Origin: a virus
Strand: one strand, 5' to 3'
IMG/VR virus record: IMGVR_UViG_3300028920_000216
Location: 1 to 28,880 of that record
DNA length: 28,880 nt
Under the pieces are notes generated by a model, which was not told the origin of the DNA, made no database searches, and worked only from the letters and a program-made list of their open reading frames with translations. This document shows positions 4,761 to 20,928 of the stretch, piece after piece. The position numbers and the translations under genes are program-made. How positions within the stretch are numbered: the first letter of the stretch is position 1; each line of letters starts with the position of its first letter.

Positions 4761-5299
4761 CCTTTTACTCCAATTTCTTTAAGGCCATCTCCCATCGAGA
4801 TGGATCCAGATTTTTTCTGTGTTCCGATTTGGAGAGTAGATGGATCAATTTCTGCCGCTTTCCGTGTGTTATCGTAGCAGTCGATGAAGCTTTTCCTGAC
4901 CCACTGCTCCTCTTCTTCGAAGTTCTGATCCTTGATAAATCGCATCCCGCCCATTCCGCTGACGGCCTTCTGTACGATCGGAGGCATGTCTGTTACATCA
5001 TCCCTGGAATAATCATGTGCGCGGCTTTTCACCAAAGCCCAGGCCTCTTCTGGCGTTGGGTATTTATTACCCTTGGCCAGCTTGATTATTCTGGCGGGGG
5101 AGGGGAAGAAGTCGTCTTCCCTGGCAATTCGGTTTACTGCGTTTTCGAATGCATCATCGTCAAGGTCAGACATTAGCCGATAAAGCATTTTTCTATTCTC
5201 GATGAAGTTGTCGTCCTTTTCTTCGTCAAGTGCTGAAGGCACTCCTTTCATTATCGAAAGGATACAAAATCCTTTCTTAAAAACATCTGGTGATAACAT
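4757..5299 (-). CDS. Replicative helicase loader/inhibitor-like protein
   Basis: 180 residues. The N-terminal helical domain includes the block DDFFPSPARIIKLA (residues 62-75) followed by EEAWALV (84-90). This pattern is seen in phage helicase-loader proteins of the G39P/gp59-like group, which deliver the hexameric helicase to the origin and often have a flexible C-terminus. Here residues 100-180 are polar and low in hydrophobics. It lies immediately downstream of the initiator-like gene at 5325-6185, the usual order for initiator plus loader. GGGAG lies upstream of ATG 5299. Confidence 0.6.
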   Translation of the reverse strand: MLSPDVFKKGFCILSIMKGVPSALDEEKDDNFIENRKMLYRLMSDLDDDAFENAVNRIAREDDFFPSPARIIKLAKGNKYPTPEEAWALVKSRAHDYSRDDVTDMPPIVQKAVSGMGGMRFIKDQNFEEEEQWVRKSFIDCYDNTRKAAEIDPSTLQIGTQKKSGSISMGDGLKEIGVKG

Positions 5300-5324
5300 T
5301 GTGATCTCCCAATAGGATTAAAAG

Positions 5325-6185
5325 TTATATCGGAGTATTCATCCAGGACTCAAGACTGGATTTTTTCTTCTTCCCACTCCTGTACTTTCCTTCAAAAATT
5401 TTGACAACAGTATCGTCCGATCGGAAGGCAAAATCAAAGTCGGCCTTCCAGCCTCGGTCATTCTCTCCGAGCAGGAATGGAGATTCTGTTATGTGAGCGA
5501 TGTACTGGGTAAAGCTGTCAAGGATATCATTGCCGTCATAGAGTTCATGGATTACCTTTGATCGGTTCCGAATTGCTCGCTTTCGTTTGTCGGTGAGCTT
5601 CTGTATTTTTGGCAGTCCGAATGCATACGCATTCCACAGAGTAACGACCTCTTCGTAAGGGGGGTATATATCTTTATCCTTTACTTCCTTAACCTCCTTT
5701 ACTTCCTTAACTTCCTTAGAGGCTTGTAACTCGTTGATGCTTGCCTCTTTACAACGATCGCTGGTAGCATCGCTGGTAGCACCGCTGGTAGCACCGCTGG
5801 TAGCACCGCTGGTAGCATCGCTTGTAGCATCGCTTGTCGCAGATTTGCAACCAGCGGAACCATTCTTTTTGCGCAGTCTGCTGAAGTCTTTCATAGACTT
5901 ATATTTCAATACTTCGAACGACGACAGATCAGACTGATTCTTTGCTCGGGTAAACTTTATATATTTGCCATCAAGAACCTTGATATTCCTCATGACCGTA
6001 TGTCTACTCACACCAAGGTCTGAAGCCATGTCTCGGATTGAGACTTTGTATATTCCCTTGTCTGGTTCAAACATTTTCGCATTTACGAGAATATGCACGT
6101 AAACAGAAAGAGGCGATCCAAACAGCTTGGGAATGTGTTCATCTATCCCTACGCTTAGGGGAACGAATAATTCATCTGTTTCCAT
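5325..6185 (-). CDS. Replication initiator-like protein with internal repeats
   Basis: 286 residues. Residues 45-70 (SIRDMASDLGVSRHTVMRNI) form a clear helix-turn-helix. A low-complexity linker follows, with seven Ala-Thr-Ser-Asp/Gly units (about 115-142) and a KEV repeat (about 155-168). The C-terminal domain ends with FLLGENDRGWKADFDFAF and VVKIFEGKY, the signature of phage O/DnaD-type initiators that contact helicase or loader. The DNA behind the linker is a 12-bp tandem repeat (5757-5840) that could be the replication origin, as in lambda O. The helicase-loader-like gene follows. Confidence 0.7.
   Translation of the reverse strand: METDELFVPLSVGIDEHIPKLFGSPLSVYVHILVNAKMFEPDKGIYKVSIRDMASDLGVSRHTVMRNIKVLDGKYIKFTRAKNQSDLSSFEVLKYKSMKDFSRLRKKNGSAGCKSATSDATSDATSGATSGATSGATSDATSDRCKEASINELQASKEVKEVKEVKEVKDKDIYPPYEEVVTLWNAYAFGLPKIQKLTDKRKRAIRNRSKVIHELYDGNDILDSFTQYIAHITESPFLLGENDRGWKADFDFAFRSDDTVVKIFEGKYRSGKKKKSSLESWMNTPI
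5757..5840. repeat. Seven 12-bp tandem repeats, candidate origin iterons
   Basis: Seven consecutive 12-bp units of the form AYCGCTGGTAGC: 5757, 5769 (ATCGCTGGTAGC), 5781, 5793, 5805 (ACCGCTGGTAGC), 5817 (ATCGCTTGTAGC) and 5829 (ATCGCTTGTCGC). They encode the Ala-Thr-Ser-Asp/Gly linker of the initiator-like protein. The position inside the initiator gene parallels the iterons of lambdoid origins. A T/C-rich pyrimidine tract lies beside it at 5683-5719 (A/G-rich on the other strand). A simple codon-repeat expansion is the alternative. Confidence 0.8.
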
Positions 6186-6205
6186 TCGGAATCCTGTTCA
6201 TCGTG

Positions 6206-6394
6206 TCATTCTCCTGAATTCTTTATGAGCCTGTTATACATCTCTTCAATAAGCTTTGCCTGGTGAGATGTCATCTTCTTTCCATTCATCTTTCTGATTT
6301 TTATTTTATTTAGAAGACTCAAAATCTCTGTATGCTTGGTAGGATATGCTTCGAGCCTTTTCAGCATCCATGATGCCTTTTTGTAAGAAGTCAT
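6206..6394 (-). CDS. Hypothetical small basic helical protein
   Basis: 62 residues starting MTSYKKASWMLKRLEAYPTK. All-helical by composition and strongly basic. ATG 6394 overlaps the stop of the ribbon-helix-helix gene (ATGA), so the two are probably translated together. No family was recognised. Confidence 0.6.
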   Translation of the reverse strand: MTSYKKASWMLKRLEAYPTKHTEILSLLNKIKIRKMNGKKMTSHQAKLIEEMYNRLIKNSGE

Positions 6395-6576
6395 AGCATA
6401 CTCAGATCTACTGGAGTGTTCTCCATCGCTTCCTGTTTTAACTTCTCAACCTTTAGAAATCTTCGGTATGCCTCCTTAGTGAAATGAGACAGGCTTATAT
6501 TTCTGCTCTCGATGTGAGAATATACATCATTCATCAGTTCATCATCACCAAGATAGATTGTTTTCCTGGCTTCCAT
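6391..6576 (-). CDS. Ribbon-helix-helix (Arc/MetJ-type) regulator
   Basis: 61 residues. The strand RKTIYLGDDEL is followed by two helices (MNDVYSHIESRN and LSHFTKEAYRRFLKVEK), the ribbon-helix-helix layout of dimeric DNA-binding proteins. It is the first gene behind a strong promoter (6612-6640) overlapped by two inverted repeats, so autoregulation is likely. It may set the expression of the initiator and loader genes downstream. AGGAG precedes ATG 6576. Confidence 0.65.
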   Translation of the reverse strand: MEARKTIYLGDDELMNDVYSHIESRNISLSHFTKEAYRRFLKVEKLKQEAMENTPVDLSML

Positions 6577-6592
6577 TGCATTCTCCTAAATT

Positions 6593-6635
6593 AGTATGTT
6601 TGAGTTACAACATCATACTTCCTTATAAGTTGTAA
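6593..6635. promoter_or_regulatory. Candidate operators over the promoter
   Basis: Two inverted repeats overlap the promoter: TTACAAC (6605-6611) with GTTGTAA (6629-6635), and AGTATG (6593-6598) with CATACT (6614-6619). Ribbon-helix-helix dimers bind such paired short sites. The adjacent gene encodes one, so autoregulation is the natural inference. Confidence 0.5.
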
Positions 6636-6640
6636 GTCAA
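6612..6640 (-). promoter_or_regulatory. Sigma-70-type promoter for the regulator-initiator segment
   Basis: On the minus strand TTGACT (6640-6635) and TATGAT (6617-6612) are separated by 17 bp, close to consensus. The start would fall near 6605, about 30 bases before ATG 6576. Confidence 0.75.
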
Positions 6641-6656
6641 GTAAAAAATATTTTTT

Positions 6657-7265
6657 TTAATTCTTCGGCATGATTAAAAGATTATCCTTGAAGAACGCAA
6701 CTCCCTTGTCAAGGACTTCAAAATAGTGTATGTCACAAAGGGTTATGAATCTGTACCCCATTCTGAACTCAGTTATTAGCTTTGAATGAAAATCTTTCAA
6801 ATCAAATGTTTCGCCTGGATTGCCGCACTTCACACACGCCTTACTTTTATTTGACACATTTATATGGTGCAGCAGTTGGCTCTGGTCTTCCTTGGCCCCA
6901 GACATGTCAAAACCATTGTCCTCACAGAATTCCTTTATAGACTGTATGGTCATCGATGCCTCTTCCTTCATGAGGTCTGTGAATGTGTCCACGCCAAGTC
7001 TTTTCTTTAGATACTGTTGCATTACTTCAGGAGTTCTGACATCATCAGGCAGATCGGTTGATTGCCTGACGATGTCAAAAATCATTGATTTAATCTTTTC
7101 CTTCTGAAGTTTTGTGACACGATACTCCTGATCAGTGTAGATTGTCAGGTGGTGTTTGCTCAAACGAGCAGCATTGGCAAGAACAACATCTTTATTCTCA
7201 TTCTCATCAATTACAAATTCGATGCTGTTCTCGCCAATTCTTCTGATCCTTCCTGTAAATTGCAT
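6657..7265 (-). CDS. HNHc-like nuclease family protein, degenerate core
   Basis: 202 residues from ATG 7265, which has AAGGAG six bases upstream (an in-frame TTG lies at 7280). The N-terminal two thirds resemble the substrate-binding part of phage HNHc-type recombination proteins (FTGRIRRIGENSIEFVID). The C-terminus holds CVKCG (residues 144-148), a strand, and LCDIHYFEV (176-184). The family normally has a D-x-HH or DIHH motif after the first Cys pair, but here it reads FDLKDFHSKL. Cleavage activity is therefore doubtful, and a structural or recombination-mediator role is possible. Confidence 0.55.
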   Translation of the reverse strand: MQFTGRIRRIGENSIEFVIDENENKDVVLANAARLSKHHLTIYTDQEYRVTKLQKEKIKSMIFDIVRQSTDLPDDVRTPEVMQQYLKKRLGVDTFTDLMKEEASMTIQSIKEFCEDNGFDMSGAKEDQSQLLHHINVSNKSKACVKCGNPGETFDLKDFHSKLITEFRMGYRFITLCDIHYFEVLDKGVAFFKDNLLIMPKN

Positions 7266-7276
7266 TTGTAACTCCT

Positions 7277-7933
7277 TCAATGATGAGATGAAATGTGACT
7301 TATAACTCCTTCATACACAAGGCCCTGTATGCATCCAGCATAGAGCCATTGACTTGTATTCTGCAAATGCCAGTTAAATTCATCCTTCATTTTTATGGCT
7401 TCACAGTTCGCGGCAAAGCCAATCTGGAACCCATCCTTAGAACAGTTGAGGCTCATTGATGCATGAGTTGCCCTGTTATATGATAATATTGTGGACTTCT
7501 CGTGTGCTATCATATCTCTCAGCTTCTTTACAGCCTCATCTGTTATCTCATATGTGGATTCTATCTGATCAATCATATCTTCTGCATGGGGTATGTTCTT
7601 TACAACTCCACCGTTATTCTTCTTAATCTTATACAGAAGATCGAGATCTATTTTTTTCTTGTATATCTCAGCCTCTGCTTTTCTCTCCTCAAGTGTCATG
7701 GGAAATTCTGAAGGAGGTCTGTTTCCGATGCTGACACCATCCTTATTGATATCGAAAGAAAAGAAGTGCTCATGTCCATTGCGATCAACGGCCTTGAGAT
7801 ATCCTATTCCATTCATTCTCTCGAGTCGCTCTTTTGGCTTTTCTCCCATATCCATATACAAGTCAACGTCGATATTATTTTGTATTGACTTAATAATCTT
7901 CTTGCGTTTTTCTCTTGCGGCGAGTGCCTGCAC
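7277..7933 (-). CDS. Hypothetical protein, GTG start
   Basis: 218 residues beginning with GTG at 7933 (MQALAAREKRKKIIKSI...), chosen because AAGGAGG lies seven bases upstream. A longer frame to 8017 would overlap the preceding gene by 128 bases. Even so it overlaps that gene by 44 bases. The sequence has a Lys-rich start, a beta-rich segment with GHEHFFSFDINKDG, and a mixed helical C-terminus. No motif was recognised. It precedes the HNHc-like gene and may belong to a recombination module. Confidence 0.55.
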   Translation of the reverse strand: MQALAAREKRKKIIKSIQNNIDVDLYMDMGEKPKERLERMNGIGYLKAVDRNGHEHFFSFDINKDGVSIGNRPPSEFPMTLEERKAEAEIYKKKIDLDLLYKIKKNNGGVVKNIPHAEDMIDQIESTYEITDEAVKKLRDMIAHEKSTILSYNRATHASMSLNCSKDGFQIGFAANCEAIKMKDEFNWHLQNTSQWLYAGCIQGLVYEGVISHISSHH

Positions 7934-8456
7934 CTTTTTTCCTCCTTGTGGTTGGTTTTCTGACAAGCTTTGTAACAATCGTAAATTCTTCATCGCTGAC
8001 TTCATACACTGTATCACCAGGCTTCAGGGTTAGGTTCGAAACATAATCTTTCGTCTTGCTGCCTGGGTCAAAAACAACCATGTCTTTCTGCTTGACATCT
8101 TTTGCCTTTGCCATGCTCATGAGTTTATTCTGGACCTCATACGCAGCTTTAAGCTTATAAATCTTTGTCGTCTTTGGTATCTTTCTTCTCTCTATCGATT
8201 TGTCATCTGCAGACTCCACAGATCCATTCGCTTTTATCATCAAATAATCACCCACAAAATACCTCCTTAAAAGTTTTAATTTGTGTATCGGCCTTGACTT
8301 TTTCTCGAACTTCTGCACCTGCGATAAAAGCTCTTCACACTTATCTATCTTTTTACATGAGAGACATGTGCCACAGTGGACCTTTTTACCTTCAGGGCAG
8401 TTGAAGAACGTAAGTCGCAGCCTTGAGTTCTTCTGTATTTTTTCCTTGATTGTCAT
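7890..8456 (-). CDS. Hypothetical protein with zinc pair and very basic tail
   Basis: 188 residues from ATG 8456 (MTIKEKIQKNSRLR), preceded by GGAG and overlapping the upstream stop (ATGA). An upstream GTG at 8468 is less likely. Contains HCGTCLSCKKIDKC (residues about 27-40), a probable metal site. The C-terminus (TTRRKKGAGTRRKRKTQEDY) is extremely basic, which suggests nucleic-acid binding. The family is unknown. Confidence 0.55.
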   Translation of the reverse strand: MTIKEKIQKNSRLRLTFFNCPEGKKVHCGTCLSCKKIDKCEELLSQVQKFEKKSRPIHKLKLLRRYFVGDYLMIKANGSVESADDKSIERRKIPKTTKIYKLKAAYEVQNKLMSMAKAKDVKQKDMVVFDPGSKTKDYVSNLTLKPGDTVYEVSDEEFTIVTKLVRKPTTRRKKGAGTRRKRKTQEDY

Positions 8457-9486: not shown

Positions 9487-9551
9487 ATTCTCCTTGTCTT
9501 TGTGTTTGATTTTTTTTTAATATCCCAATCCTTTTACCTATGACCTAAAAC

Positions 9552-9605
9552 TTATATAGGCCAGTATTTCCTGAATACGTTCCACATATAGAATGTAGAT
9601 CTCAT
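9552..9605 (-). CDS. 17-residue leader peptide candidate
   Basis: The peptide MRSTFYMWNVFRKYWPI follows one of the best ribosome sites in the window (AAAGGAGGTGATGACC then ATG 9605). It is rich in aromatic residues (Phe, Tyr, Trp). It lies between the genes at 9649-9918 and 8848-9486. A short CCTAT/ATAGG repeat follows. It could be a translational leader controlling the 8848-9486 gene or a tiny effector. Confidence 0.5.
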   Translation of the reverse strand: MRSTFYMWNVFRKYWPI

Positions 9606-9648
9606 GGTCATCACCTCCTTTCGTATTCAGTAAAAAGGTTATTGTTGA

Positions 9649-9918
9649 CTACGCCCTCTCCAGGTAGCATCTGCCCAGGCACCGCGCCTCGGAAGCTATG
9701 TCCTGGGCTTCGCGAAACCCAGGGGTCGAGAAGCGGAAGACATACTTAAATAGGTATGTGCCTAGGTTGTCGGCCTTTTTCTCGATCTGCTCGAGCTCGA
9801 GCGCATGCTCGAGGAGCTCGTCGGAGCTAAGACTCTCCATCACGAAGAGAGACTTTTTCTTCGCTATGGCTCCTTTCATCCGAGCCATGTCCTCGTAACA
9901 CCATGTCCATAATCCCAT
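9649..9918 (-). CDS. Hypothetical early protein, first gene after the leftward promoter
   Basis: 89 residues from ATG 9918 (MGLWTWCYEDMARMKGAIAK), fixed by GGAGGTGATT just upstream. An ATG at 9930 lies within the ribosome site itself. Mostly helical with a Leu/Glu-rich heptad region (SDELLEHALELEQIEKKA) and four cysteines. G+C content is above that of the rest of the leftward operon. It is the first gene after the promoter at 9957-9986, where host-takeover proteins often sit, but the function is unknown. Confidence 0.6.
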   Translation of the reverse strand: MGLWTWCYEDMARMKGAIAKKKSLFVMESLSSDELLEHALELEQIEKKADNLGTYLFKYVFRFSTPGFREAQDIASEARCLGRCYLERA

Positions 9919-9956
9919 AATCACCTCCATAATAGGTTAATAAGCCTCTTATAATT

Positions 9957-9986
9957 GTTATACCAGAATTTAGCATTGCAATTCAA
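9957..9986 (-). promoter_or_regulatory. Leftward extended -10 promoter at left edge of the array
   Basis: On the minus strand TTGAAT (9986-9981), 18 bp, then TGG-TATAAC (9965-9957), an extended -10. It would serve 9649-9918 and the genes beyond. The same core TGGTATAAY occurs at 13005-13013 on the other side of the array. Confidence 0.6.
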
Positions 9987-10083
9987 AGGTTTTATCTAGC
10001 ACTGGGTCCCCCAGTAGCGGAGGATTTGTAGACCTTATTGTATCATTACGAACGTGTCGTCCGCTGCTACAATTGAATGCTAA
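9970..10083. ncRNA. Structured unit closing the left end of the array
   Basis: Outer pairing TTAGCAT (9970-9976) with ATGCTAA (10077-10083) continues into CAATT (9979-9983) with AATTG (10071-10075), then GTAG..CGGA (10014-10021) with TCCG..CTAC (10060-10070). The nested helices enclose about 115 bases with no protein gene. Its right-hand part (minus-strand 5' side) overlaps the -35 region of the leftward promoter. Strand and function are undetermined. Confidence 0.5.
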
Positions 10084-10108
10084 GGGGAAGGCATAGGCTT
10101 GATTAACT

Positions 10109-10124
10109 TGTTTCACGTGAAACC
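10109..10124. other. parS-like palindrome
   Basis: TGTTTCACGTGAAACC matches the widely conserved bacterial chromosomal parS (TGTTTCACGTGAAACA) at 15 of 16 positions. The central 14 bp form a perfect palindrome. It is not part of one of the array's 7-3-7 hairpins. Host ParB/Spo0J binds such sites in many bacterial phyla. Confidence 0.6.
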
Positions 10125-10288
10125 CGTAACGGATTTCATAGGGCCATTCTAAGTTCTCATATCTCTGTGCCCTTGAACTCATCTACCTGATGAGTTCGAG
10201 GCCACGTAGAAGGTAGGTGATGATTTAATGCAATATATGTGTATCACATATCCAGGCAATGGCGATTCCAAATGTATCAAACATCGAC

Positions 10289-10311
10289 GCCTTCAGGGGC
10301 AGCCTGAAGGC
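10289..10311. ncRNA. Array stem-loop
   Basis: GCCTTCAGG (10289-10297) pairs perfectly with CCTGAAGGC (10303-10311) around a 5-nt loop. It is the main stem of the unit between the first two 7-3-7 hairpins. Confidence 0.6.
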
Positions 10312-10392
10312 AAGTGAGTGTGATATTGTTTTACGGCAAAGCAGCTGTTAACAGATGCATATACGAAAGCCATGTCCTGATGTTATATTTGA

Positions 10393-10442
10393 GGCCTGAA
10401 GACTCTGGTCATCATGCAATGATGACCTCTCGCTTCAGGGCC
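10393..10442. ncRNA. Array two-helix hairpin
   Basis: Outer helix GGCCTGAAG (10393-10401) with CTTCAGGGCC (10433-10442, one bulged G). Symmetric 5-nt internal loop. Inner helix GGTCATCAT (10407-10415) with ATGATGACC (10419-10427) and a GCA triloop. Confidence 0.65.
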
Positions 10443-10522
10443 TACAAAGTATCGTGTTTGTTATGATTCTATCATGGATGTATCATCCATTGAGCGACAT
10501 TCAATATGAATACAATAATTAT

Positions 10523-10552
10523 CGCGGGCCATATCTTCCGATGTGGCCCGCG
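10523..10552. ncRNA. Array 13-bp hairpin
   Basis: CGCGGGCCATATC (10523-10535) pairs with GATGTGGCCCGCG (10540-10552). The one non-Watson-Crick pair is T-G on the + strand. The loop is TTCC on + and a GNRA-type GGAA on minus, so the strand cannot be decided from it. Confidence 0.65.
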
Positions 10553-10931
10553 TGTAAATATAATTAATGAGGCTTTTATACGTCCAAGATGTTTCATCTT
10601 GATAGACAATGTGCTCAAGTTTCTATGGTATAGGTGAGGGAGGGCACCTCCGTCCGCGTGTTGTTGTCAAACAACTGCGACGGGGAGCTCCTCCAAACAC
10701 TATCCCAGTGTTTTCTTTGCTGCCTTAACCCTGGAAAGTATCTTTCCAGTCTTTCCACATGCTATAATTATAATATGAACGGATCACAGCCGCACTTGAC
10801 CATGGTGACGACTCGCTCGTCCCCAGGGTCCAGGGCGTCTGGATCTCGTGGCATAAAGTGTTCCATACGTTATTTTTCATCCAGTATGTTACATACTGCA
10901 GAGCCATGTGATAAATCCTAAACTACATAGA

Positions 10932-10971
10932 AGTTCATCCTGAAGATTCGAAGACTCTTCGGGGTTGAACT
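10932..10971. ncRNA. Array nested hairpin
   Basis: AGTTCA (10932-10937) with TGAACT (10966-10971), an inner CC/GG, then GAAGA (10942-10946) with TCTTC (10956-10960). Confidence 0.5.
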
Positions 10972-11054
10972 ATGAAACTTGCTGTAGCTAACTTCAGGGG
11001 AAGAGCGTATCGCTCTTCATTGTCGATTTTTGAAATATCCAAATACTATCTTGT

Positions 11055-11126
11055 GACAACCCCCAAACGCTGAAGCTCGCACTCTCCTACCAGGAGAGGC
11101 TGAGCTGCATGGCGTGATGCGTTGTC
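11055..11126. ncRNA. Array multi-helix unit
   Basis: GACAAC (11055-11060) with GTTGTC (11121-11126) encloses AGCTC (11075-11079) with GAGCT (11102-11106). The terminal helix is CTCTCCT (11082-11088) with AGGAGAG (11092-11098) and an ACC triloop. The terminal helix is also 7 bp with a 3-nt loop. Confidence 0.6.
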
Positions 11127-11350
11127 TTATCAGGTACTTATGCAAATGCATGCGTATCGCATGCTTTGACGATATCCAAAGGCAAAGTATCCATGGAGCC
11201 CATGAGAGCAGACGTCGGAAACCATGTCACCGTCAGTAACATTCATTGATGTCATGGACCGATTATAGAGCGCCCAGATAGAATTATTGTTAATACATAT
11301 CGGCGGAAGCGTATCGCGTCCAATTACGATATCCAAATTATATATTCTGA

Positions 11351-11378
11351 GACCAGGATCCTAGAGAGGAACCTGGTC
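11351..11378. ncRNA. Array hairpin
   Basis: GACCAGG (11351-11357) with CCTGGTC (11372-11378), a single A-A mismatch, then TCCT (11359-11362) with AGGA (11367-11370) and an AGAG loop. Confidence 0.6.
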
Positions 11379-11460
11379 GGTGAGTGTATCTTGCTTTGTT
11401 TTTCTGTGAGGGCGTATCGCCCGCTAATGCGATATCCAATGGTGTGACATTATTATAAGA

Positions 11461-11502
11461 ACCAGCAGCAGGAGGTGCGTCCATGCAACTCCTGCTGCTG
11501 GT
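11461..11502. ncRNA. Array perfect 14-bp hairpin
   Basis: ACCAGCAGCAGGAG (11461-11474) pairs perfectly with CTCCTGCTGCTGGT (11489-11502) around a 14-nt loop. Confidence 0.7.
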
Positions 11503-11681
11503 AGTTTGTATCAGATGATTTATCGTCGCAATTGTATCAATTGCCGATTCGATATCCAAAGCTTATAGGGGTCCGAGATGCGTTGCAGCATGCGAAGCAT
11601 CATCAGCCACATATATAATCCATACTTATTGATTCTGTGCAGGTGTTTCTCCTGCAAGGGCGATATCCAAAACTTATAGCG

Positions 11682-11725
11682 TCACCACATCTGGGGCTAT
11701 CTTTTATGGCAGCGGATAGTGGTGA
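11682..11725. ncRNA. Array two-helix hairpin
   Basis: TCACCA (11682-11687) with TGGTGA (11720-11725), stacked on CTATC (11697-11701) with GATAG (11715-11719). A 9-nt bulge lies on one side. Confidence 0.5.
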
Positions 11726-11799
11726 TGTGTTGATATTTTCTTGTTTCTGTGTGAACGTAGCGCTCACGAGAGCGATATCCAAAGGTTACATTAAACCTG

Positions 11800-11858
11800 A
11801 GCTTCACACGGGTCTGTTGGCGAGCTAATAACAGCTCGCCACAGACAGTTGTGAAGCT
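11800..11858. ncRNA. Array long three-helix hairpin
   Basis: AGCTTCACA (11800-11808) with TGTGAAGCT (11850-11858), then GTCTGT (11812-11817) with ACAGAC (11841-11846), then GGCGAGCT (11819-11826) with AGCTCGCC (11833-11840). The loop is 6 nt. All 23 pairs are Watson-Crick with 3-nt internal asymmetries, one of the strongest structures in the window. Confidence 0.75.
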
Positions 11859-11939
11859 ACTAGTTGAGTTATAAACTTGCTGAGTTTCCTCGATCGGGAT
11901 GTATCATCCTGGTTGGCGATATTCTGTGCTAAAATTACT

Positions 11940-12011
11940 GGAAATCTGTCTCCCCCAGATTTCCGCGAGATCGTTAGGCAGAATCGTCAACGCGATTATG
12001 TGTTAACGATC
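11940..12011. ncRNA. Array unit with two hairpins
   Basis: GGAAATCTG (11940-11948) with CAGATTTCC (11956-11964). It is followed by GATCGTTA (11969-11976) with TAACGATC (12004-12011), enclosing an AATCG/CGATT helix. Confidence 0.65.
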
Positions 12012-12154
12012 CAAGATATTGTGTTGGGTTGTTAACGTAGAAAGCGTATCGCTTCCGTATACCACAAAAAAATATCTGCCATGCAAAGGTTATTATAAAT
12101 GCGAAACATATGAAATTTATGTGAGCATTTATGCTGCGCATCTTCGGTCTGCGT

Positions 12155-12191
12155 GATTATTCTTACTGCGAAGGATTCGCAGAGAATAATC
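12155..12191. ncRNA. Array two-helix hairpin
   Basis: GATTATTCT (12155-12163) with AGAATAATC (12183-12191) encloses CTGCGAA (12166-12172) with TTCGCAG (12176-12182) and a GGA triloop. Confidence 0.65.
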
Positions 12192-12295
12192 TTCGCAGCT
12201 CCCGTGAGATCGCAAGGTATTGTGTTTATTTTTTAGCTATCGGGAATGTACCATCCCCTTGAACCATGATAGATATCTTGTTATGCAAAGATTAC

Positions 12296-12342
12296 CGCAG
12301 ACAACAGTCTGCGTGAAAACCTTCATTAATACGTATTAATGA
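12296..12342. ncRNA. Array hairpin and 20-bp perfect palindrome
   Basis: CGCAGAC (12296-12302) with GTCTGCG (12307-12313). Then the perfect palindrome TCATTAATACGTATTAATGA (12323-12342), flanked by TGAAAAC/GTTTTCA. A related TCATTAA...TTAATGA pairing recurs at about 12363-12389. Confidence 0.6.
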
Positions 12343-12486
12343 CATGTTTTCATAGAAAACTGTCATTAACTACACGCTTGTATTAATGATAGCGTTTTCA
12401 AGGAATTGTATATATTTCTTTCCATCGAGAGAGTAACTCTCTCATTGACCATAAAGATATCTTATTCTACAATGAATTAAAGGGAG

Positions 12487-12510
12487 AATCCCAGAGCGAT
12501 CTCTGGGATT
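12487..12510. ncRNA. Array 10-bp hairpin
   Basis: AATCCCAGAG (12487-12496) pairs perfectly with CTCTGGGATT (12501-12510) around CGAT, flanked by a further GGAGA/TCTCC pairing. Confidence 0.65.
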
Positions 12511-12614
12511 GCAGTCTCCATTTTCGGTTCGATTATTGTGTTTCCTATTCGACATAGTATGCGTATCGCATACAGATACATATCTTCTGGCATCTGAATC
12601 TGGTAACATTGGAG

Positions 12615-12636
12615 CCGCCGCGTATACACGCGGCGG
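12615..12636. ncRNA. Array GC-rich hairpin
   Basis: CCGCCGCG (12615-12622) with CGCGGCGG (12629-12636) around TATACA, inside a TGGA/TCCA and GCATC/GATGC frame. Confidence 0.65.
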
Positions 12637-12882
12637 AAATCCATGTGTATTCTTTGATGCTTAAGCGTCATCAGCGTATCGCTGATAGAGCATGCCTTGT
12701 ATCTTGTCTTACATCGTTTTCAGAATGGTCCCCGTTCTCCATTGGAATGAACGGCAGACCTGATCTGATGCTGTGTTGTGGTAATTGTTGCTACGCACAG
12801 ATGTATCATCTGCATTATCATACAAAGGCAATTATCCATATGTTACAAGAGAGCGGCTTGTGCCCCTTGCAGTGAGCGTGGA

Positions 12883-12899
12883 GTTATTCCCCGAATAAC
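12883..12899. ncRNA. Array 7-bp hairpin, CCC loop
   Basis: GTTATTC (12883-12889) with GAATAAC (12893-12899) and a CCC triloop. It lies within a larger GTGCCC/GGGCAC and GCAGT/ACTGC frame. Confidence 0.55.
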
Positions 12900-13004
12900 C
12901 CAATAGCGAACTGCCCCTGGGCACTTATGTCCTCTGAAGTGGATTAACTTTTTATCCTATTGAAGTGTATCACTTCATAAAGCGATAAATATGCCTACAT
13001 CATA

Positions 13005-13013
13005 ATTATACCA
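13005..13013 (-). promoter_or_regulatory. Leftward extended -10 promoter entering the array
   Basis: On the minus strand TGG-TATAAT (13013-13005) is a perfect -10 with TG extension. The -35 region is poor (GTTAAA at about 17 bp). Transcription would run leftward through all 20 hairpins. Confidence 0.55.
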
Positions 13014-13051
13014 GAAATAAGTTTATTTTTAACGTAAAACAAAATTTAGAC

Positions 13052-13079
13052 TTGACAATAACTGAGAGCACTATATAAT
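13052..13079 (+). promoter_or_regulatory. Promoter of the rightward virion operon
   Basis: TTGACA (13052-13057), 16 bp, TATAAT (13074-13079): both hexamers are perfect consensus. The start lies near 13086, about 33 bases before ATG 13119. Confidence 0.9.
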
Positions 13080-13118
13080 TGAATTAAATCTTATTCCTTA
13101 CCATGGGAGGAACTAAAT

Positions 13119-14084
13119 ATGCCAAACGTGAATCCCCAGTTATTTGGCGAGTGGGGTAAAACGGCTTCCACGTCATATCTTACGTCTGGCTCATCTCTTA
13201 ACTCGGAAATCGCTAAGATTGCAGTTGAGAATGATCTGAACCCAGCGCAAATAAAAAGGGTGTGTGAAAACGCCAACCTTACAACATACAAATCTTTATT
13301 CTTCAATTCAAGGGACAAAGCCCTTGATTTTGACATTGCCACTCCTGAGAAAGTAGCACAGGAAATCGGAGCCGTTGAGACAGAACCCACGAGCATGGAC
13401 TACCTCACTCAGCCAAACATTAAGAAAGAAGCCAACCTTAAGAAAGTCGAGAAGATCTTCGGGCAGATCCCTGAAGATGCTGATGACACTCAAGAGAAGG
13501 TTAAGGTTGCCTCGAAATTCAACAGGCAATTGTCTGCAGCCGAAAAGGAAATGAACAGTAGGCTGTATCTTGCAACAATGAAGAAAGAGGCATCTGAGAA
13601 AAGGCTTTACAATATAATGAAGCAGATGGTTATGGGTGGCCATGACTTCAAGAAACTTGCCGCAGTCGTTGTTGATCAGGCACCAAAGGTTGATCTAAGA
13701 GACACTATGGTAAGAGCTTATACAAAGATGAGAGACGAAGGAGTCCTCGGTGTTAGAGAGAAAGTAGCCGTGGAAATGCCGAATGATATTATCCAGACCG
13801 CGATCGAAGCTGACCAGGCAAAGGCTAAAAAAAATGGGGCCCCAGAAACAGTAAACAGTAATCATCCCCTCGTACAAGAGGTTAATACTCTTCAGGAAAG
13901 CCTAATAAGCGAAGACAACACCAGAAAAGGTATTTGGCTGTTAAAGGATACGGCCAATGTTGTGAAGGGTAAGATAGAAAATCTTAATTCCTCTGAGAAA
14001 AGGGATAAAGCCGTCAAGGAGATAACAGGAGAAGATGACTCCAAAACAGAAGCTTATGAAGTCTTTACTCACCAGCCAGGATGA
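13119..14084 (+). CDS. Virion-operon protein with LFGEWGKTA motif
   Basis: 321 residues starting MPNVNPQLFGEWGKTAS, after GGGAGGA. This is the first gene of the late operon. The N-terminal motif (hydrophobic-F-x-E-W-x-K-T-A) is related to short motifs in several other small proteins of this operon. The remainder is charged and largely helical (NDLNPAQIKRVCENANL and a long Lys/Glu-rich centre), with no enzyme motif. A minor virion or assembly protein is likely from position only. Confidence 0.6.
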   Translation: MPNVNPQLFGEWGKTASTSYLTSGSSLNSEIAKIAVENDLNPAQIKRVCENANLTTYKSLFFNSRDKALDFDIATPEKVAQEIGAVETEPTSMDYLTQPNIKKEANLKKVEKIFGQIPEDADDTQEKVKVASKFNRQLSAAEKEMNSRLYLATMKKEASEKRLYNIMKQMVMGGHDFKKLAAVVVDQAPKVDLRDTMVRAYTKMRDEGVLGVREKVAVEMPNDIIQTAIEADQAKAKKNGAPETVNSNHPLVQEVNTLQESLISEDNTRKGIWLLKDTANVVKGKIENLNSSEKRDKAVKEITGEDDSKTEAYEVFTHQPG

Positions 14085-15541: not shown

Positions 15542-17245
15542 ATGTATAAAATAATAGAACCACAGCAATCTCTCATTGAAGCAGAACCGATCGTTTCCGT
15601 TATTGATCTTCACGAAGACTTTCTGACAAAACACGCTTCGGCTGATTCAGAGATCGCAAAGTATGCCAAGAGTCTGAAACCAAGGGAAGATGGTATCTAC
15701 CTTCATATCAATGCTTTAGGTGGTGAAAACTGGGGCAGTAATGCAAATGGAGATTATTTCGAGAGTGAAGTTCTTGCTCACGAATGCCCGATGGATGGCG
15801 AAACACCAAGAATGGAAGACTATGGCTTTAAAACTTTTGAGAAATATGCATATCCGTACAAACATCACGTCAACAAAGACCCAGAGAAATCAGTAGGAGA
15901 GCGCGTAAAGTTCGCATCATACAATCCGAAGGTTGATCGGGTTGAGTTGATAGTATTCGTAGACAGAAATAAGGATCCAGAGCTCTGCAAGAAAGCGGAG
16001 GTCGGAGAAGCCATACCTGTCAGCATGGGAACAAAAGTTCTTTATGACGTTTGTTCTATATGCGGAAATGCTGCAAAGAAAACGGTTGATTACTGCGAAC
16101 ATCTTAAATATGCGATGAACAAAACTCTCGGGGACGGCAGGAAAGTCTACGCTATGAATAAGTATCCCCGTTTCTTTGACATATCTTTTGTTCTCGTGCC
16201 TGCAGAAAAAGCTTCTTACGTTATGAATAAAGTCGCAAGCGCCAGAAGCTCTCAAATAGTTGTGCCTTCAGCATTTATAGCTGAGGCTTTGAAGATTGAA
16301 GAACCAAAGCGGGCTGAAGATAAGTCTGCTGAAATAAAGAAAGAAATACCGATTACCGAGGTGCAAACCGAACAGCCAGGAAGGGATGTTATAAAGTCTT
16401 TCTCGTCTCTCGTCCCCAAGGTCACATCTTTAGAACCCTCTCTTTCAGAGGGCACGATGGAGGAATTAGCTGATTTCCCGCTAAGCGACATTCTTTCTAC
16501 TGCCACAGGAATGGGTATGGTTCTTAAGCCTGGCGAGTTCACTCGAATCGTAGTCATAAAGGGTGCGAAGCCTGCTGAAAAGCCTGCTGAGCAGCCTGAG
16601 ATCTCGCCAGATGCCATTAACACAAAGGTGGCATCGATCCTTAAAGACTACGTAGTAGATAGGAGCTCGTTCAGACCAGCACTTCGTGCAAGACTGGTAA
16701 AGTTAGCGAACCAAGGTCCTGTAACAATAGATGAGACTCTCCAGCAGGACGTGGTTTCGAAAGGTCTGCCATCTGCCGCTGCTTTAACAGCATTGTACGA
16801 TATGTATAGGTCTAAGGTGAATAAGATGCCTGGCGGATACCTCACTCAAGCTCTCGAACGCAAGCCTTTGCTTGGTATTATACTCGGGGCGATCGCTGCT
16901 GCAGGACTTGGTTTAAGCCAGTCCCTGGAGAAAACTGCGAAGCTCGGACGTGCAGGTAAGGCCGCTGTGGTCGGGTCATTGGCATATCCATACTTTGTCA
17001 AGGCTCATAAGGAGCAAGAGTACTTTAAGAAAGGTAAACCGCCTGGAGACATAGGAAAGCTTTTTATCAAACATCCTGGATTGATTGGCTTAGCTTCCCT
17101 TTATCCTACGCTTAAAGTAATGCGTAAGTTTGCATCCGTATCTGATGTGGTCAGGCAAAACAAGGTTCTTACCTGGCCGTTGGTAGAGGATGCCCCTGTC
17201 GATATGGTTGACAGGGCAATTGTTAATGGTTTTGTGAATTTGTAA
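15542..17245 (+). CDS. Prohead maturation protease-like protein with long C-terminal extension
   Basis: 567 residues. Residues 1-235 match the layout of phage head-maturation proteases: KHHVNKDPEKSVGERVKFA (HH 108-109), SMGTKV (S161), a zinc-type site CSICGN...YCEHLK (C171, C174, C185, H187), then FFDISFVLVPAE. By family analogy His and Ser are candidate catalytic residues. The remaining about 330 residues include scaffold-like charged segments, a Gly/Ala-rich stretch (LLGIILGAIAAAGLGLSQSL) and EKTAKLG. A protease-scaffold fusion is the likeliest reading, with the protease processing capsid proteins during maturation. It lies upstream of the capsid genes as expected. Confidence 0.7.
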   Translation: MYKIIEPQQSLIEAEPIVSVIDLHEDFLTKHASADSEIAKYAKSLKPREDGIYLHINALGGENWGSNANGDYFESEVLAHECPMDGETPRMEDYGFKTFEKYAYPYKHHVNKDPEKSVGERVKFASYNPKVDRVELIVFVDRNKDPELCKKAEVGEAIPVSMGTKVLYDVCSICGNAAKKTVDYCEHLKYAMNKTLGDGRKVYAMNKYPRFFDISFVLVPAEKASYVMNKVASARSSQIVVPSAFIAEALKIEEPKRAEDKSAEIKKEIPITEVQTEQPGRDVIKSFSSLVPKVTSLEPSLSEGTMEELADFPLSDILSTATGMGMVLKPGEFTRIVVIKGAKPAEKPAEQPEISPDAINTKVASILKDYVVDRSSFRPALRARLVKLANQGPVTIDETLQQDVVSKGLPSAAALTALYDMYRSKVNKMPGGYLTQALERKPLLGIILGAIAAAGLGLSQSLEKTAKLGRAGKAAVVGSLAYPYFVKAHKEQEYFKKGKPPGDIGKLFIKHPGLIGLASLYPTLKVMRKFASVSDVVRQNKVLTWPLVEDAPVDMVDRAIVNGFVNL

Positions 17246-17256
17246 GGAGGCCAATA

Positions 17257-17889
17257 ATGGCTGGTAACACTATTGATGAAATTTTTGCTGCTCTTATCAA
17301 TGAAGGCGAAGAAGTTAAGACTGCTGGCGAAGAAGTAAAACCCGAAGAAGAGGCCAAGGTTGAAGGTGAGAAGAAGCCCGAAGCTGAAAAAGTTGCTGCT
17401 CTGGCAGAGATTCTTCCTGAAGAAGCCCTCAACGTTCTTCGCGAATACGTGAAAGAGGCAGAAGAGGAAGAGAAGAAGGCCGAACAGGTCAAAGAAGCTG
17501 AAGAAGCAATTGCTACAGGTCGTTTTATGGCTCGTGGTTTCGTTGCTGAACTCCAGAAACTCGGTGCCGACTATGGCGAACCCATGGAAGTTGCTGATTT
17601 CTCTGACAAGGCTGTCATTCAGGGTGCCGCTGATGTTCCGACACCTGCAACCAGCAATATTGTTCAGGATGGTTCCACTGCTCTGACCCAGGCAAAGAAA
17701 GAAGATGCTCAGAAGTCTCCTGTCAGCCCGACCGCACGTCAGGACGTGGTTAAGGCTGTGAAGAAGATTATCAGTGCTGCTGACGTAGCATCCAAGGGTC
17801 AGGATCCGCAGGAAGTTCCGAATAACCTGGGCGTTAAAGAAACCGCAACAAGTGGCAACAAATCAAGCCAGCCCAATAACGTTGCGTAA
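17257..17889 (+). CDS. Acidic scaffold-like virion protein
   Basis: 210 residues starting MAGNTIDEIFAALINEGEEV after AAGGAGG. The first 90 residues are strongly acidic and helical (Glu/Lys/Ala-rich). Then comes MARGFVAELQKLGADYGE and FSDKAVIQGA, and a polar C-terminus. The next gene repeats the same order (acidic part, MARSFLDEIEKEAG, YSEKAVIAS), so the two are paralogues. Composition and position suggest a scaffolding or internal head protein. Confidence 0.6.
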   Translation: MAGNTIDEIFAALINEGEEVKTAGEEVKPEEEAKVEGEKKPEAEKVAALAEILPEEALNVLREYVKEAEEEEKKAEQVKEAEEAIATGRFMARGFVAELQKLGADYGEPMEVADFSDKAVIQGAADVPTPATSNIVQDGSTALTQAKKEDAQKSPVSPTARQDVVKAVKKIISAADVASKGQDPQEVPNNLGVKETATSGNKSSQPNNVA

Positions 17890-17932
17890 TCAGGTTGACA
17901 AATTGTAATTTTTTTTAGTTAGGAGATTGATA

Positions 17933-18522
17933 ATGAGTCTCGCAGAACTTTATAACGAGATGTACAATTCCGAAGAGCCTGAGAAGGTTGCTGAAGAAAC
18001 AAAAGTAGCAGAAGCTGAAAAGCTTGCAAGTGTCATTGAAGACCTGAGCGACGAAGATGCAGAAAAGCTGGCAGAAGCATGTGACCTGCTTGACCATAAT
18101 GGTTATCAGTTCGAAGATGCTGAAACCAAGCTCGCTGCAGCTGCTGAGGTTGTTGATGGTGTTGAAAATGGAACCATCGAGATTGAAGAAGATGAAGATG
18201 ATTCCGAAAAAACCGCAGCAGAATTTGACGCTGCTGGCCGTATCATGGCTCGCTCATTTCTCGATGAAATCGAGAAGGAAGCTGGCGATCAAAAAAAAAT
18301 TACTCTGAAAAGGCCGTAATAGCCTCTAAGGGTGGTTCTGTCTTGAAGAAGGTCCTTTCTTTACTGAAACCTTCTGGAGTAAAGGCAGATGTTAAAGCCC
18401 TGCTTAAGACGCAGGGGTTAACTTCAGCTAAGGCCAAGAAAGAAGCCCTCAAACGGTTAGGCATTCGTGCTGGAATCGGTGCTGGTGGGGCAGCCACAGC
18501 TGGATATGTTGCAGGAAAATAA
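17933..18522 (+). CDS. Paralogue of 17257-17889, probably completed by -1 frameshift
   Basis: From ATG 17933 (AGGAG seven bases upstream) the zero frame stops at 18319 after 128 residues ending DQKKITLKRP. A -1 shift at the A run 18291-18299 (A-AAA-AAA, 18292-18298) continues to 18522, giving about 196 residues. The added part begins NYSEKAVIASKGGS, aligning with FSDKAVIQGA of the upstream paralogue. It ends in a Gly/Ala-rich tail (GIGAGGAATAGYVAGK) like that of the next gene. Purine-rich GAAGGAAG lies about 10 bases before the slip site, as in dnaX-type stimulators. A homopolymer sequencing error is the alternative. Confidence 0.7.
18291..18299 (+). other. Slippery A9 tract, candidate frameshift site
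   Basis: Nine consecutive A. In the zero frame the tract reads CAA-AAA-AAA-ATT, giving a perfect A-AAA-AAA heptamer for tandem -1 slippage or a substrate for polymerase slippage. It is used to explain the fusion 17933-18522. Confidence 0.6.
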
Positions 18523-18529
18523 ATATCTT

Positions 18530-18565
18530 CCCAGGTTGAAAAGCCTGGGGAGATTTCCAAATCTC
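18530..18565 (+). other. Tandem hairpins before the next gene
   Basis: CCCAGG (18530-18535) with CCTGGG (18544-18549), immediately followed by GAGATTT (18550-18556) with AAATCTC (18559-18565), ending just before AAGGAGG. There is no U tract, so this is not a standard terminator. It may influence translation of 18579-18836 or RNA processing. Confidence 0.5.
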
Positions 18566-18578
18566 AAGGAGGATTAAC

Positions 18579-18836
18579 ATGGCAGGCAAAGCACGTACAT
18601 TAGGTCGCGTCTTGAAGCTGGGATTACCAGCTCTTGGACTTGGTGCTGGTGGTGCTGCCGCTGGTTACTCCGTGGCTGAAGGAAAAGGAAAAGAAAAACT
18701 CAGAAACCTTGGAGCAAAAGCCACAAACGTAATCAAAGGTCAGCAGAGGCTTATTATGACTCTGGCCAGGCAGAATCAGGCCCTGGCAAGTGCCTACAGG
18801 AGACGGGTTGCTTCTAGCAAATCTGGAGGAAAATAA
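18579..18836 (+). CDS. Small Gly/Ala-rich protein
   Basis: 85 residues starting MAGKARTLGRVLKLGLPALG, after AAGGAGG. LGLGAGGAAAGYSVAEGKG is nearly the same as the frameshifted tail of the preceding gene (GIGAGGAATAGYVAGK). It could be a duplicated C-terminal domain now expressed alone. The basic C-terminus contains a long helix. Likely a minor virion component, function unknown. Confidence 0.6.
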   Translation: MAGKARTLGRVLKLGLPALGLGAGGAAAGYSVAEGKGKEKLRNLGAKATNVIKGQQRLIMTLARQNQALASAYRRRVASSKSGGK

Positions 18837-18837
18837 T

Positions 18838-19200
18838 ATGCCAACGATCGAGCAAATTTGCGATTCTATTCTTGAGGGAAAAACAATATCGGGAATAGAT
18901 GTCGAATTACATGAAAAGGCAGCGCAAGAAAAAAATAATCAAACACAGGACGAAATACCTGAATACGAGAGAATTGCTCGTGTTCTTGACGATATCAGCA
19001 ACTCCTCTGACGAAGATAAAGAGGTTGTTGAGGAAGAAGTGGAAGAAGAAACAAAAGCAGAAGAAGATGTCACTCCTCCTGCAAATGGCAGGATGGAAAA
19101 GATGGCAGTGGCAGCTACTATCCTGGATACATTGAGTGAACTTTCCGAAGATGGTAGCGCTGAAAAATGCTTCAAAGAATATTTTCAGGAGAGGGTTTAA
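18838..19200 (+). CDS. Acidic virion-operon protein
   Basis: 120 residues from ATG 18838 (MPTIEQICDSILEGKTISGI), fixed by GGAGG. The frame is open further upstream, inside the previous gene. It has a highly acidic central stretch (Glu/Asp-rich, residues 60-85), then GRMEKMAVAATILDTLSELS. The acidic-then-motif layout resembles the 17257 and 17933 products, so it may be a third, shortened member of that scaffold-like set. Confidence 0.6.
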   Translation: MPTIEQICDSILEGKTISGIDVELHEKAAQEKNNQTQDEIPEYERIARVLDDISNSSDEDKEVVEEEVEEETKAEEDVTPPANGRMEKMAVAATILDTLSELSEDGSAEKCFKEYFQERV

Positions 19201-19203
19201 CCA

Positions 19204-19560
19204 ATGGAAAAACAAGAAGCTATTAAACAGGCCGCTGTTAAGCTGAGAGATTTCGCGAGCAAGAATGAGGAGCTTACGAAAGAAAACGAAAAAATTGCAT
19301 CCGAAAAAGAAGCTGTCGTAAAAGAGTTGAAGGCGTACAAGACAGCATGTCAGCTTGTCTTAGATGGCGACCTCGACGTTGGTGAACTCACCGAAAAAGT
19401 AGCTTCTTTTATGGAAAAAAGCGAGGATGAAGTTCAGCGGGAACTTCAAAGATCTCAGCTTATAAATGGCGGGCTTGGCCAGGTTAAAATGGCCAGTGGA
19501 TCACCAGATGGCACTGGAGAGTCGGATCCATTAACGGATTTTCTTCATTCATTAGGTTAG
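19204..19560 (+). CDS. Coiled-coil protein
   Basis: 118 residues starting MEKQEAIKQAAVKLRDFASK. Residues 5-50 show heptad-like Lys/Glu/Ala repeats consistent with a coiled coil, and the rest is polar, ending DPLTDFLHSLG. AGGAGAGGG lies upstream and the gap to the previous stop is three bases. The place just ahead of the decoration/capsid genes suits a scaffold or assembly helper. Confidence 0.6.
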   Translation: MEKQEAIKQAAVKLRDFASKNEELTKENEKIASEKEAVVKELKAYKTACQLVLDGDLDVGELTEKVASFMEKSEDEVQRELQRSQLINGGLGQVKMASGSPDGTGESDPLTDFLHSLG

Positions 19561-20043: not shown

Positions 20044-20928
20044 ATGGAACAAGCTGCTATTCTGAATGATCTCTTCGCTTCTGCGCTCAGCAATCCAGAA
20101 GAGAAGGAAAAACTCGCTGAAGCTGGCGGTGCCTTTGTGCGCCAGAAGCTGCGCGAACTGTCTTTCGCAAGACGGATTGTCCCCCCTGTCATGGTAACAA
20201 AAGACGACTGTCAGCGTTCTGAAGATCACGACGGTCTCGTCAAAGTTATCGACAAAGAACCTGATAGCTCTGCTATGGCTATTAGTTTCAGAGGCAAGCC
20301 CGAAGCGAAGTATATTGAAGGCGAACGCTATACGGTTAAATTCTTTACCGTGAGCTCCGAACGCTTTCAGAAAACAGAACAGGAACTTCTGTCCTATGAA
20401 ATGCCGATCACCAAGGTTATCGAAGAGAACTCGGTGAAAGACATTCAGAAGATCGAAGACTCCCGTTTCAAAACCTGGATGGATTACGCGATCGCAGCCA
20501 GTAGCCTGACCCAGACCATTTCCGACACAACTGTCGAAAAGACTGGTATCGCCGCTCTGTCTCGCCTGATCTCCACCAAAGAACTTAAGCTGGATACCAT
20601 TCTCATGACCCAGCTGGACTTCAACGACATCCTTGCCTGGAATGCAAATTCCTTCGGTGACAAGGTTGCAAGTGAAGTTGTTGTTGATGGTTACAAGTAT
20701 GAAACCGTAATGGGTTACAAACTTGTCACAACCATTAAGAGCGACATCATTGATGAAGGTAAGTTCTACGGTTTCGCTGCTCCTCAGTTCCTGGGTAACT
20801 TCTTTATCCTCAACCAGACCAAGTTCTGGGTTGACAAAGAAGCCAACCTGATCAGTTTTCAGAGCTGGGAAGACGTTGCAATGGGTATCGGCAATGTTAA
20901 TGCAGTTGCCGAAATCGAACTGTCGTAG
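20044..20928 (+). CDS. Major capsid protein
   Basis: 294 residues after AAGGAGG. Blocks such as SFARRIVPPVMVTKDDCQRS, VKVIDKEPDS, FFTVSSERFQKTE and LSYEMPITKVIEENSVKDIQ match a family of phage major capsid proteins with the HK97 fold. Gene order (protease-like, scaffold-like, decoration-like, this gene, terminator, connector genes) and codon choice typical of a highly expressed gene agree. Where the maturation protease would cut is not clear. The N-terminal 35 residues are the helical candidate for removal. Confidence 0.85.
   Translation: MEQAAILNDLFASALSNPEEKEKLAEAGGAFVRQKLRELSFARRIVPPVMVTKDDCQRSEDHDGLVKVIDKEPDSSAMAISFRGKPEAKYIEGERYTVKFFTVSSERFQKTEQELLSYEMPITKVIEENSVKDIQKIEDSRFKTWMDYAIAASSLTQTISDTTVEKTGIAALSRLISTKELKLDTILMTQLDFNDILAWNANSFGDKVASEVVVDGYKYETVMGYKLVTTIKSDIIDEGKFYGFAAPQFLGNFFILNQTKFWVDKEANLISFQSWEDVAMGIGNVNAVAEIELS

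Follow-up and report, generated by a model that had tools for sequence, protein, structure and literature searches.

We found an array of twenty small hairpins of one geometry in a gene-free tract of the phage DNA analysed here (the window, a 28,880-base fragment of a virus record), and the way these hairpins vary strongly supports selection on a single-stranded structure. The array lies between replication genes, which run leftward up to position 9930, and a structural operon that runs rightward from 13119. A first-pass annotation had called about 3 kb of this region gene-free, and indeed no open reading frame of at least 100 aa occurs at 9487-13090. The reading that we tentatively prefer is a leftward non-coding RNA with about 20 binding sites for one protein, which could serve as a sponge or a scaffold.

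All hairpins were recovered as the first-pass annotation had listed them (Table 1). Each of the 20 consists of a 7-bp stem around a 3-nt loop of the form T-W-N, closed by an invariant G-C pair, and neighbouring hairpins are 103-239 nt apart (median 144). The earlier division into twelve perfect stems and eight with a single defect was likewise reproduced; the non-Watson-Crick pairs of the latter are A.C in four cases, A.G in two, and G.T and T.T in one each. Allowing at most one mismatch, a search of 10100-13050 returned 21 matches, namely the 20 hairpins, 12 of them perfect, and a weak one at 10120. Dinucleotide-shuffled sequences (n=1000) fail to reproduce this array, with a mean of 0.1 matches (maximum 3) and 0.008 perfect ones (maximum 1), and the other 25.9 kb of the window hold one match and no perfect one.

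The stems also covary. When the 20 units are aligned, 95% of the stem cells are paired (61% in shuffles), 60 are altered on both sides (18 in shuffles) and the covariation score reaches 0.98 (0.27 in shuffles), values that none of the shuffles attained. Sliding the helix by 1-3 columns lowers the paired cells to 29-49%, so that even a single-column shift destroys the pairing, and six of the seven stem pairs vary on both sides with pairing kept. Because shuffles fail and stems covary, the earlier proposal that shape is kept while sequence is free, and that selection thus acts on a single-stranded structure, is strongly supported.

The hairpin, which the first-pass annotation had taken as the conserved unit, proved to be only the core of a larger one that includes sequence-conserved flanks. 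This module has a frame of about 54 nt in fixed register, with conserved positions up to 25 nt away: on the left T at -21 (16/20), T at -9 (14/20) and C at -4 (14/20), and on the right C at +6 (16/20), A at +8 (14/20) and T at +9 (13/20). In a leave-one-out test with a profile built from the flanks only, 16 of the 20 units ranked within about the top 5% of all positions in the array. The left-out units scored 4.3 on average, whereas displaced control sets averaged -3.5 (sd 0.6). On the plus strand, the consensus reads as a T-rich flank, C-R-T-C, the hairpin RNRRRYG-TAT-CRYYYNY, four free bases and R-C-N-A-T, which six middle units extend with CGATATCCAA. Pairing between left and right flanks is no greater than in mismatched units (p 0.54 and 0.96); the flanks therefore appear to act as sequence rather than as an outer stem. 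We also rejected a pseudoknot between loop TAT and the ATA of GATATC, since by eye the flank does not track the loop variants, as well as a tRNA anticodon arm, T arm or permuted-tRNA acceptor stem, whose bases do not fit and for which ARAGORN and Rfam returned nothing.

Between the modules stand strong hairpins of unrelated sequence, which share neither loop nor length. The mean folding z-score of the region is -4.2 on the plus and -3.6 on the minus strand, compared with -0.6 elsewhere in the window.

Table 1. Array, modules, intervening hairpins, promoters and adjoining genes, in window coordinates
Feature	Position	Strand	Description or basis
Array of 20 modules	10235..12977		geometry, shuffles, covariation; first hairpin 10235-10251, last 12961-12977
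Hairpin starts 1-10 (17 nt each)	10235, 10474, 10585, 10732, 10882, 11001, 11148, 11305, 11408, 11528		
Hairpin starts 11-20 (17 nt each)	11639, 11751, 11895, 12040, 12242, 12427, 12557, 12670, 12797, 12961		
Sub-run with CGATATCCAA	11171..11782	+	6 nt 3' of hairpin; units 11148, 11305, 11408, 11528, 11639, 11751
Top-scoring 54-nt module	11383..11436	+	43.6 bits; T-rich left flank, hairpin 11408-11424, then NNNNGCGATATCC
Module with flank variant GACCATA	12402..12455	+	42.5 bits; perfect hairpin 12427-12443, loop TAA
Degenerate extra unit	10048..10064		ACGAACG-TGT-CGTCCGC, 5/7 pairs; model 16.3 bits, E 0.4 (model span 10022-10076)
Possible degenerate unit	10341..10358		GCAGCTG-TTAA-CAGATGC, 4-nt loop, in the widest gap of the array; seen in sequence
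Spacer hairpin, 17 bp	11461..11502		ACCAGCAGCAGGAGGTGC / GCAACTCCTGCTGCTGGT; seen in sequence and folding
More spacer hairpins	10289-10311, 10395-10439, 10523-10552, 10787-10841, 11071-11109, 11351-11378		
Further spacer hairpins	11800-11858, 11940-11964, 12296-12313, 12487-12510, 12615-12636		
Extended -10 promoter into array	13005..13032	-	TTAAAA-16-TATAAT with TG, core TTCTGGTATAAT (13016 to 13005); consensus match
Second promoter core at left end of array	9957..9968	-	TTCTGGTATAAC; reads into gene 9930..9649
Next leftward gene beyond left end of array	9930..9649	-	
Promoter of structural operon	13052..13079	+	perfect sigma70-type, TTGACA-16-TATAAT
First gene of rightward structural operon	13119-14084	+	

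Leftward transcription of the array is supported by its right edge, where an extended -10 promoter is predicted to read into it. The window contains exactly two copies of this promoter's minus-strand core, TTCTGGTATAA (13016-13005 and 9968-9957): besides the one at the right edge, its exact 11 bases recur only at the left end of the array, before the next leftward gene. In related phages, TTATACC-type motifs were seen ahead of leftward genes.

The hairpins themselves lean modestly to the same strand. Their mean pair probability is 0.87 in minus-strand and 0.63 in plus-strand RNA, but flank-shuffled controls give 0.80 and 0.67, so that the excess strand difference of the array is only 1.7 sd. 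As the first-pass annotation had counted, of the five informative mismatches four form G.U exclusively on the minus strand and one exclusively on the plus strand, a ratio that is not significant. The spacer hairpins lean the other way, with summed folding energies of -752 (plus) and -670 (minus) kcal/mol and with G.T to A.C mismatches of 5:2 in plus folds and, in plus-strand terms, 6:2 in minus folds; composition accounts for about half of the strand difference in folding. Mismatch types taken over all stems have no clear strand preference. The earlier view that the strand is not settled thus holds, and on these sequence data the minus strand is favoured.

Searches for relatives started from the major head protein (20044-20928), which has 365 confirmed relatives among IMG/VR contigs, many of them 175-195 kb long. 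The closest are 61-64% identical, and the very few sequenced phages among the relatives (Salmonella phage Arash, Vibrio phages D69, D148 and D181, and Bacillus phage G) match more weakly. As the first-pass annotation had proposed, a covariance model (R1) was built from the array, whose own 20 units score 26-44 bits, and run on relatives; it found nothing credible in 14 records, most of 145-196 kb, or in other loci, with best scores of 22.8 and 21 bits. Scanning IMG/VR for the sequence pattern yielded single matches attributable to chance and nothing more, arrays with a different loop were absent from 2.6 Mb of other loci and from another 77 loci, and blastn against phage and plasmid records found no match to the array. 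Rfam 15 had no match in the window above the gathering cut-off, the best permissive hit being a chance one of 20.4 bits against a cut-off of 90.

Absence of the hairpins from relatives, which the first-pass annotation had named as evidence against its proposal, was observed in a weak form: head-protein relatives with 45-64% identity are without the array, which does not undo its internal covariation. Since these relatives have no such array, it was most plausibly added in the lineage of this phage. Closer relatives were sought with the proteins at 13119-14084, 7277-8017 and 26018-28330, and none was found. Two leftward genes that were tested had no match in six of the relatives; truly close kin are therefore probably absent from the database.

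Some other features were observed in the relatives. Two loci, L168 and L058, carry small groups of 4-7 hairpin copies; in L168 (genome G007) seven repeated hairpins with the inner sequence ACGACCT lie within 3 kb, at about 18380-18400, and are perhaps a tandem repeat. Large relatives have clusters of 21 and 16 tRNA genes away from the head genes (L161 and L162 of G007; L174 and L175 of G016), and one of them also has a tmRNA gene; in the window itself, neither ARAGORN nor Rfam found a tRNA fold and thus no tRNA gene cluster. The prohead-protease homologues of G001 (L005, contig 16503-19256) and G004 (L198, contig 5277-7520) match in separated pieces within frames of 955 and 992 aa, compared with about 570 aa in the window, which makes an in-frame insertion, possibly an intein, probable.

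No similar array was found in the papers searched, and the earlier statement that no described phage element of this layout was known stands for the array as a whole, but not for its single hairpins, since a closely similar geometry is known from the promoters of phage N4. Other systems share some traits with the array. CsrB and RsmZ are non-coding RNAs that each bear several hairpins, in which loops and closing pairs are conserved and stems vary, and that titrate one protein, as is proposed here. Their hairpins present an A(N)GGA motif in loops of 5-8 nt, which none of the array's loops has (20/20 are TWN), and the array is about 3 kb long and combines triloops with fixed flanks; as GGA loops define this group, the array does not belong to it. 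ROOL, GOLLD and OLE are large non-coding RNAs with extensive structure, some of which occur in phages, but each is one complex fold, whereas the array repeats one small module and matches no Rfam family. CRISPR arrays have near-identical repeats and spacers of similar length, while here the stems are unrelated and the spacing is uneven. We rate the array as categorically new in layout, with two qualifications: a single contig is its only source, and we infer its function.

A chance origin of the array is already excluded. Its occurrence on a single contig leaves a little room for a low-complexity or assembly artefact, but shuffles, covariation and leave-one-out flanks all argue against chance or artefact and the copies are too diverged for an assembly repeat, which makes explanations of this kind highly improbable. 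The array might instead act as DNA, as a single-stranded signal such as a site of replication, priming, strand transfer or nicking, or an injection stop like that of T5. We regard this as unlikely, although the array sits at the divergent junction where the GC skew switches sign and its mismatches, taken over all stems, fit a role without strand. The injection stop region of T5 is reported to contain many inverted repeats (PMC13250531). Compared by description only, it resembles the array as a hairpin-rich non-coding phage region, but its two-step transfer, DnaA-box layout and terminal position are not evident here. Two relatives that share the divergent junction with the window (G021 and G022), with an orthologue of the 13119-14084 gene heading their structural operon, have only a short intergenic spacer at that point and no array, and the hairpin spacing of 103-239 nt would be irregular for such a signal. 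Moreover, the window encodes an O-like replication initiation gene (5325-6185, minus strand), within which six and a half tandem repeats of 12 bp each lie at 5757-5834. Repeats inside the initiator gene are the usual place of lambda-type origins. As the O-like gene has tandem repeats of its own, the sequence points to this gene, and not to the array, as the likelier place of an origin.

Somewhat less probable still is that the hairpins are DNA promoters. Supercoiling of the DNA would extrude each 7-3-7 palindrome, and a single-subunit phage RNA polymerase like that of the N4 virion would read them, which would yield about 20 short RNAs. The early promoters of N4 (Schitoviridae) are template-strand hairpins with a 3-nt loop whose stem bases are free if pairing holds (PMC4496689; PMC3715699). 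Judged by analogy, the N4 hairpin is the nearest known geometric match: the array shares its 3-nt loop, a stem within the range of 5-7 bp, free paired bases and a base conserved at a fixed distance. With the plus strand as template, 17/20 units have A at the centre of the loop, where N4 has a purine at -11, and the conserved C at -4 lies 12 nt from the loop centre, compared with 11 nt for the +1C of N4. This C near the +1 position is the only one of the N4 bases that fits, since the loop is TAT (plus) or ATA (minus) instead of G-R-A, and the second stem base is T, C or A instead of -8G. Furthermore, the conserved flanks extend to 21 nt from the hairpin, none of the genes elsewhere in the window has a hairpin of this kind in front of it, and N4 has three hairpins, each before genes, so that twenty in a gene-free tract with extended flanks would be strange. 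The polymerase search covered relatives, this phage itself being known only from its 28.9-kb fragment; no match to the T7-like polymerase family was found in 16 relatives, and the N4 polymerase core was unmatched in 9, while N4 itself scored. The least probable of the functional alternatives, by a small step, is that a long precursor is cut into about 20 separate small RNAs, in which the constant module would signal processing and each variable hairpin would become one of the RNAs. This would explain the alternation of constant modules with sequence-unrelated hairpins, but the lack of a common loop or length among the latter argues against it, as does a terminator count that is not above chance, by which we also rejected these hairpins as terminators.

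The sponge or scaffold RNA is favoured over these alternatives because its pattern fits a protein-read hairpin and because about 20 sites share one molecule. Fixed shape, loop and closing pair, a free stem and fixed flank bases suggest a protein that reads the hairpin in its context, and the presence of about 20 of these sites in a single molecule points to titration or scaffolding. We infer that the array acts as RNA, that its sites are read by a single protein and that titration follows. Host RNA polymerase would transcribe a non-coding RNA of about 3 kb leftward from the extended -10 promoter, and this RNA would hold about 20 copies of one composite binding site, made up of a triloop hairpin, in which shape, closing pair and loop are read and the stem is nearly free, and of single-stranded flank bases from -21 to +9. 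The stable hairpins of unrelated sequence could hold these sites apart, and some 20 sites per molecule could titrate or scaffold an abundant RNA-binding protein of host or phage. For an RNA we count the covariation, the fixed flanks, the folding stability, the lack of genes, the leftward promoter at the right edge, the minus-strand pair probability and the G.U mismatches on the minus strand; against it, the plus lean of the spacer hairpins, the small strand excess and the lack of a homologous array among the searched genomes. In its fullest form, which we hold with slightly more reserve, the proposal is that of an undescribed phage non-coding RNA whose roughly 20 shape-selected triloop hairpins titrate or organise one host or phage protein in early infection.

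Few natural sequences show selection on shape repeated twenty times in one molecule with such free stems. The array amounts to a mutagenesis series performed by nature, which defines a binding site without an experiment. If it is indeed an RNA sponge, it would represent a strategy new for phages and give a lead to the protein that it captures; if its hairpins are DNA promoters, they would extend N4-type hairpin transcription to an unrelated family of large phages.
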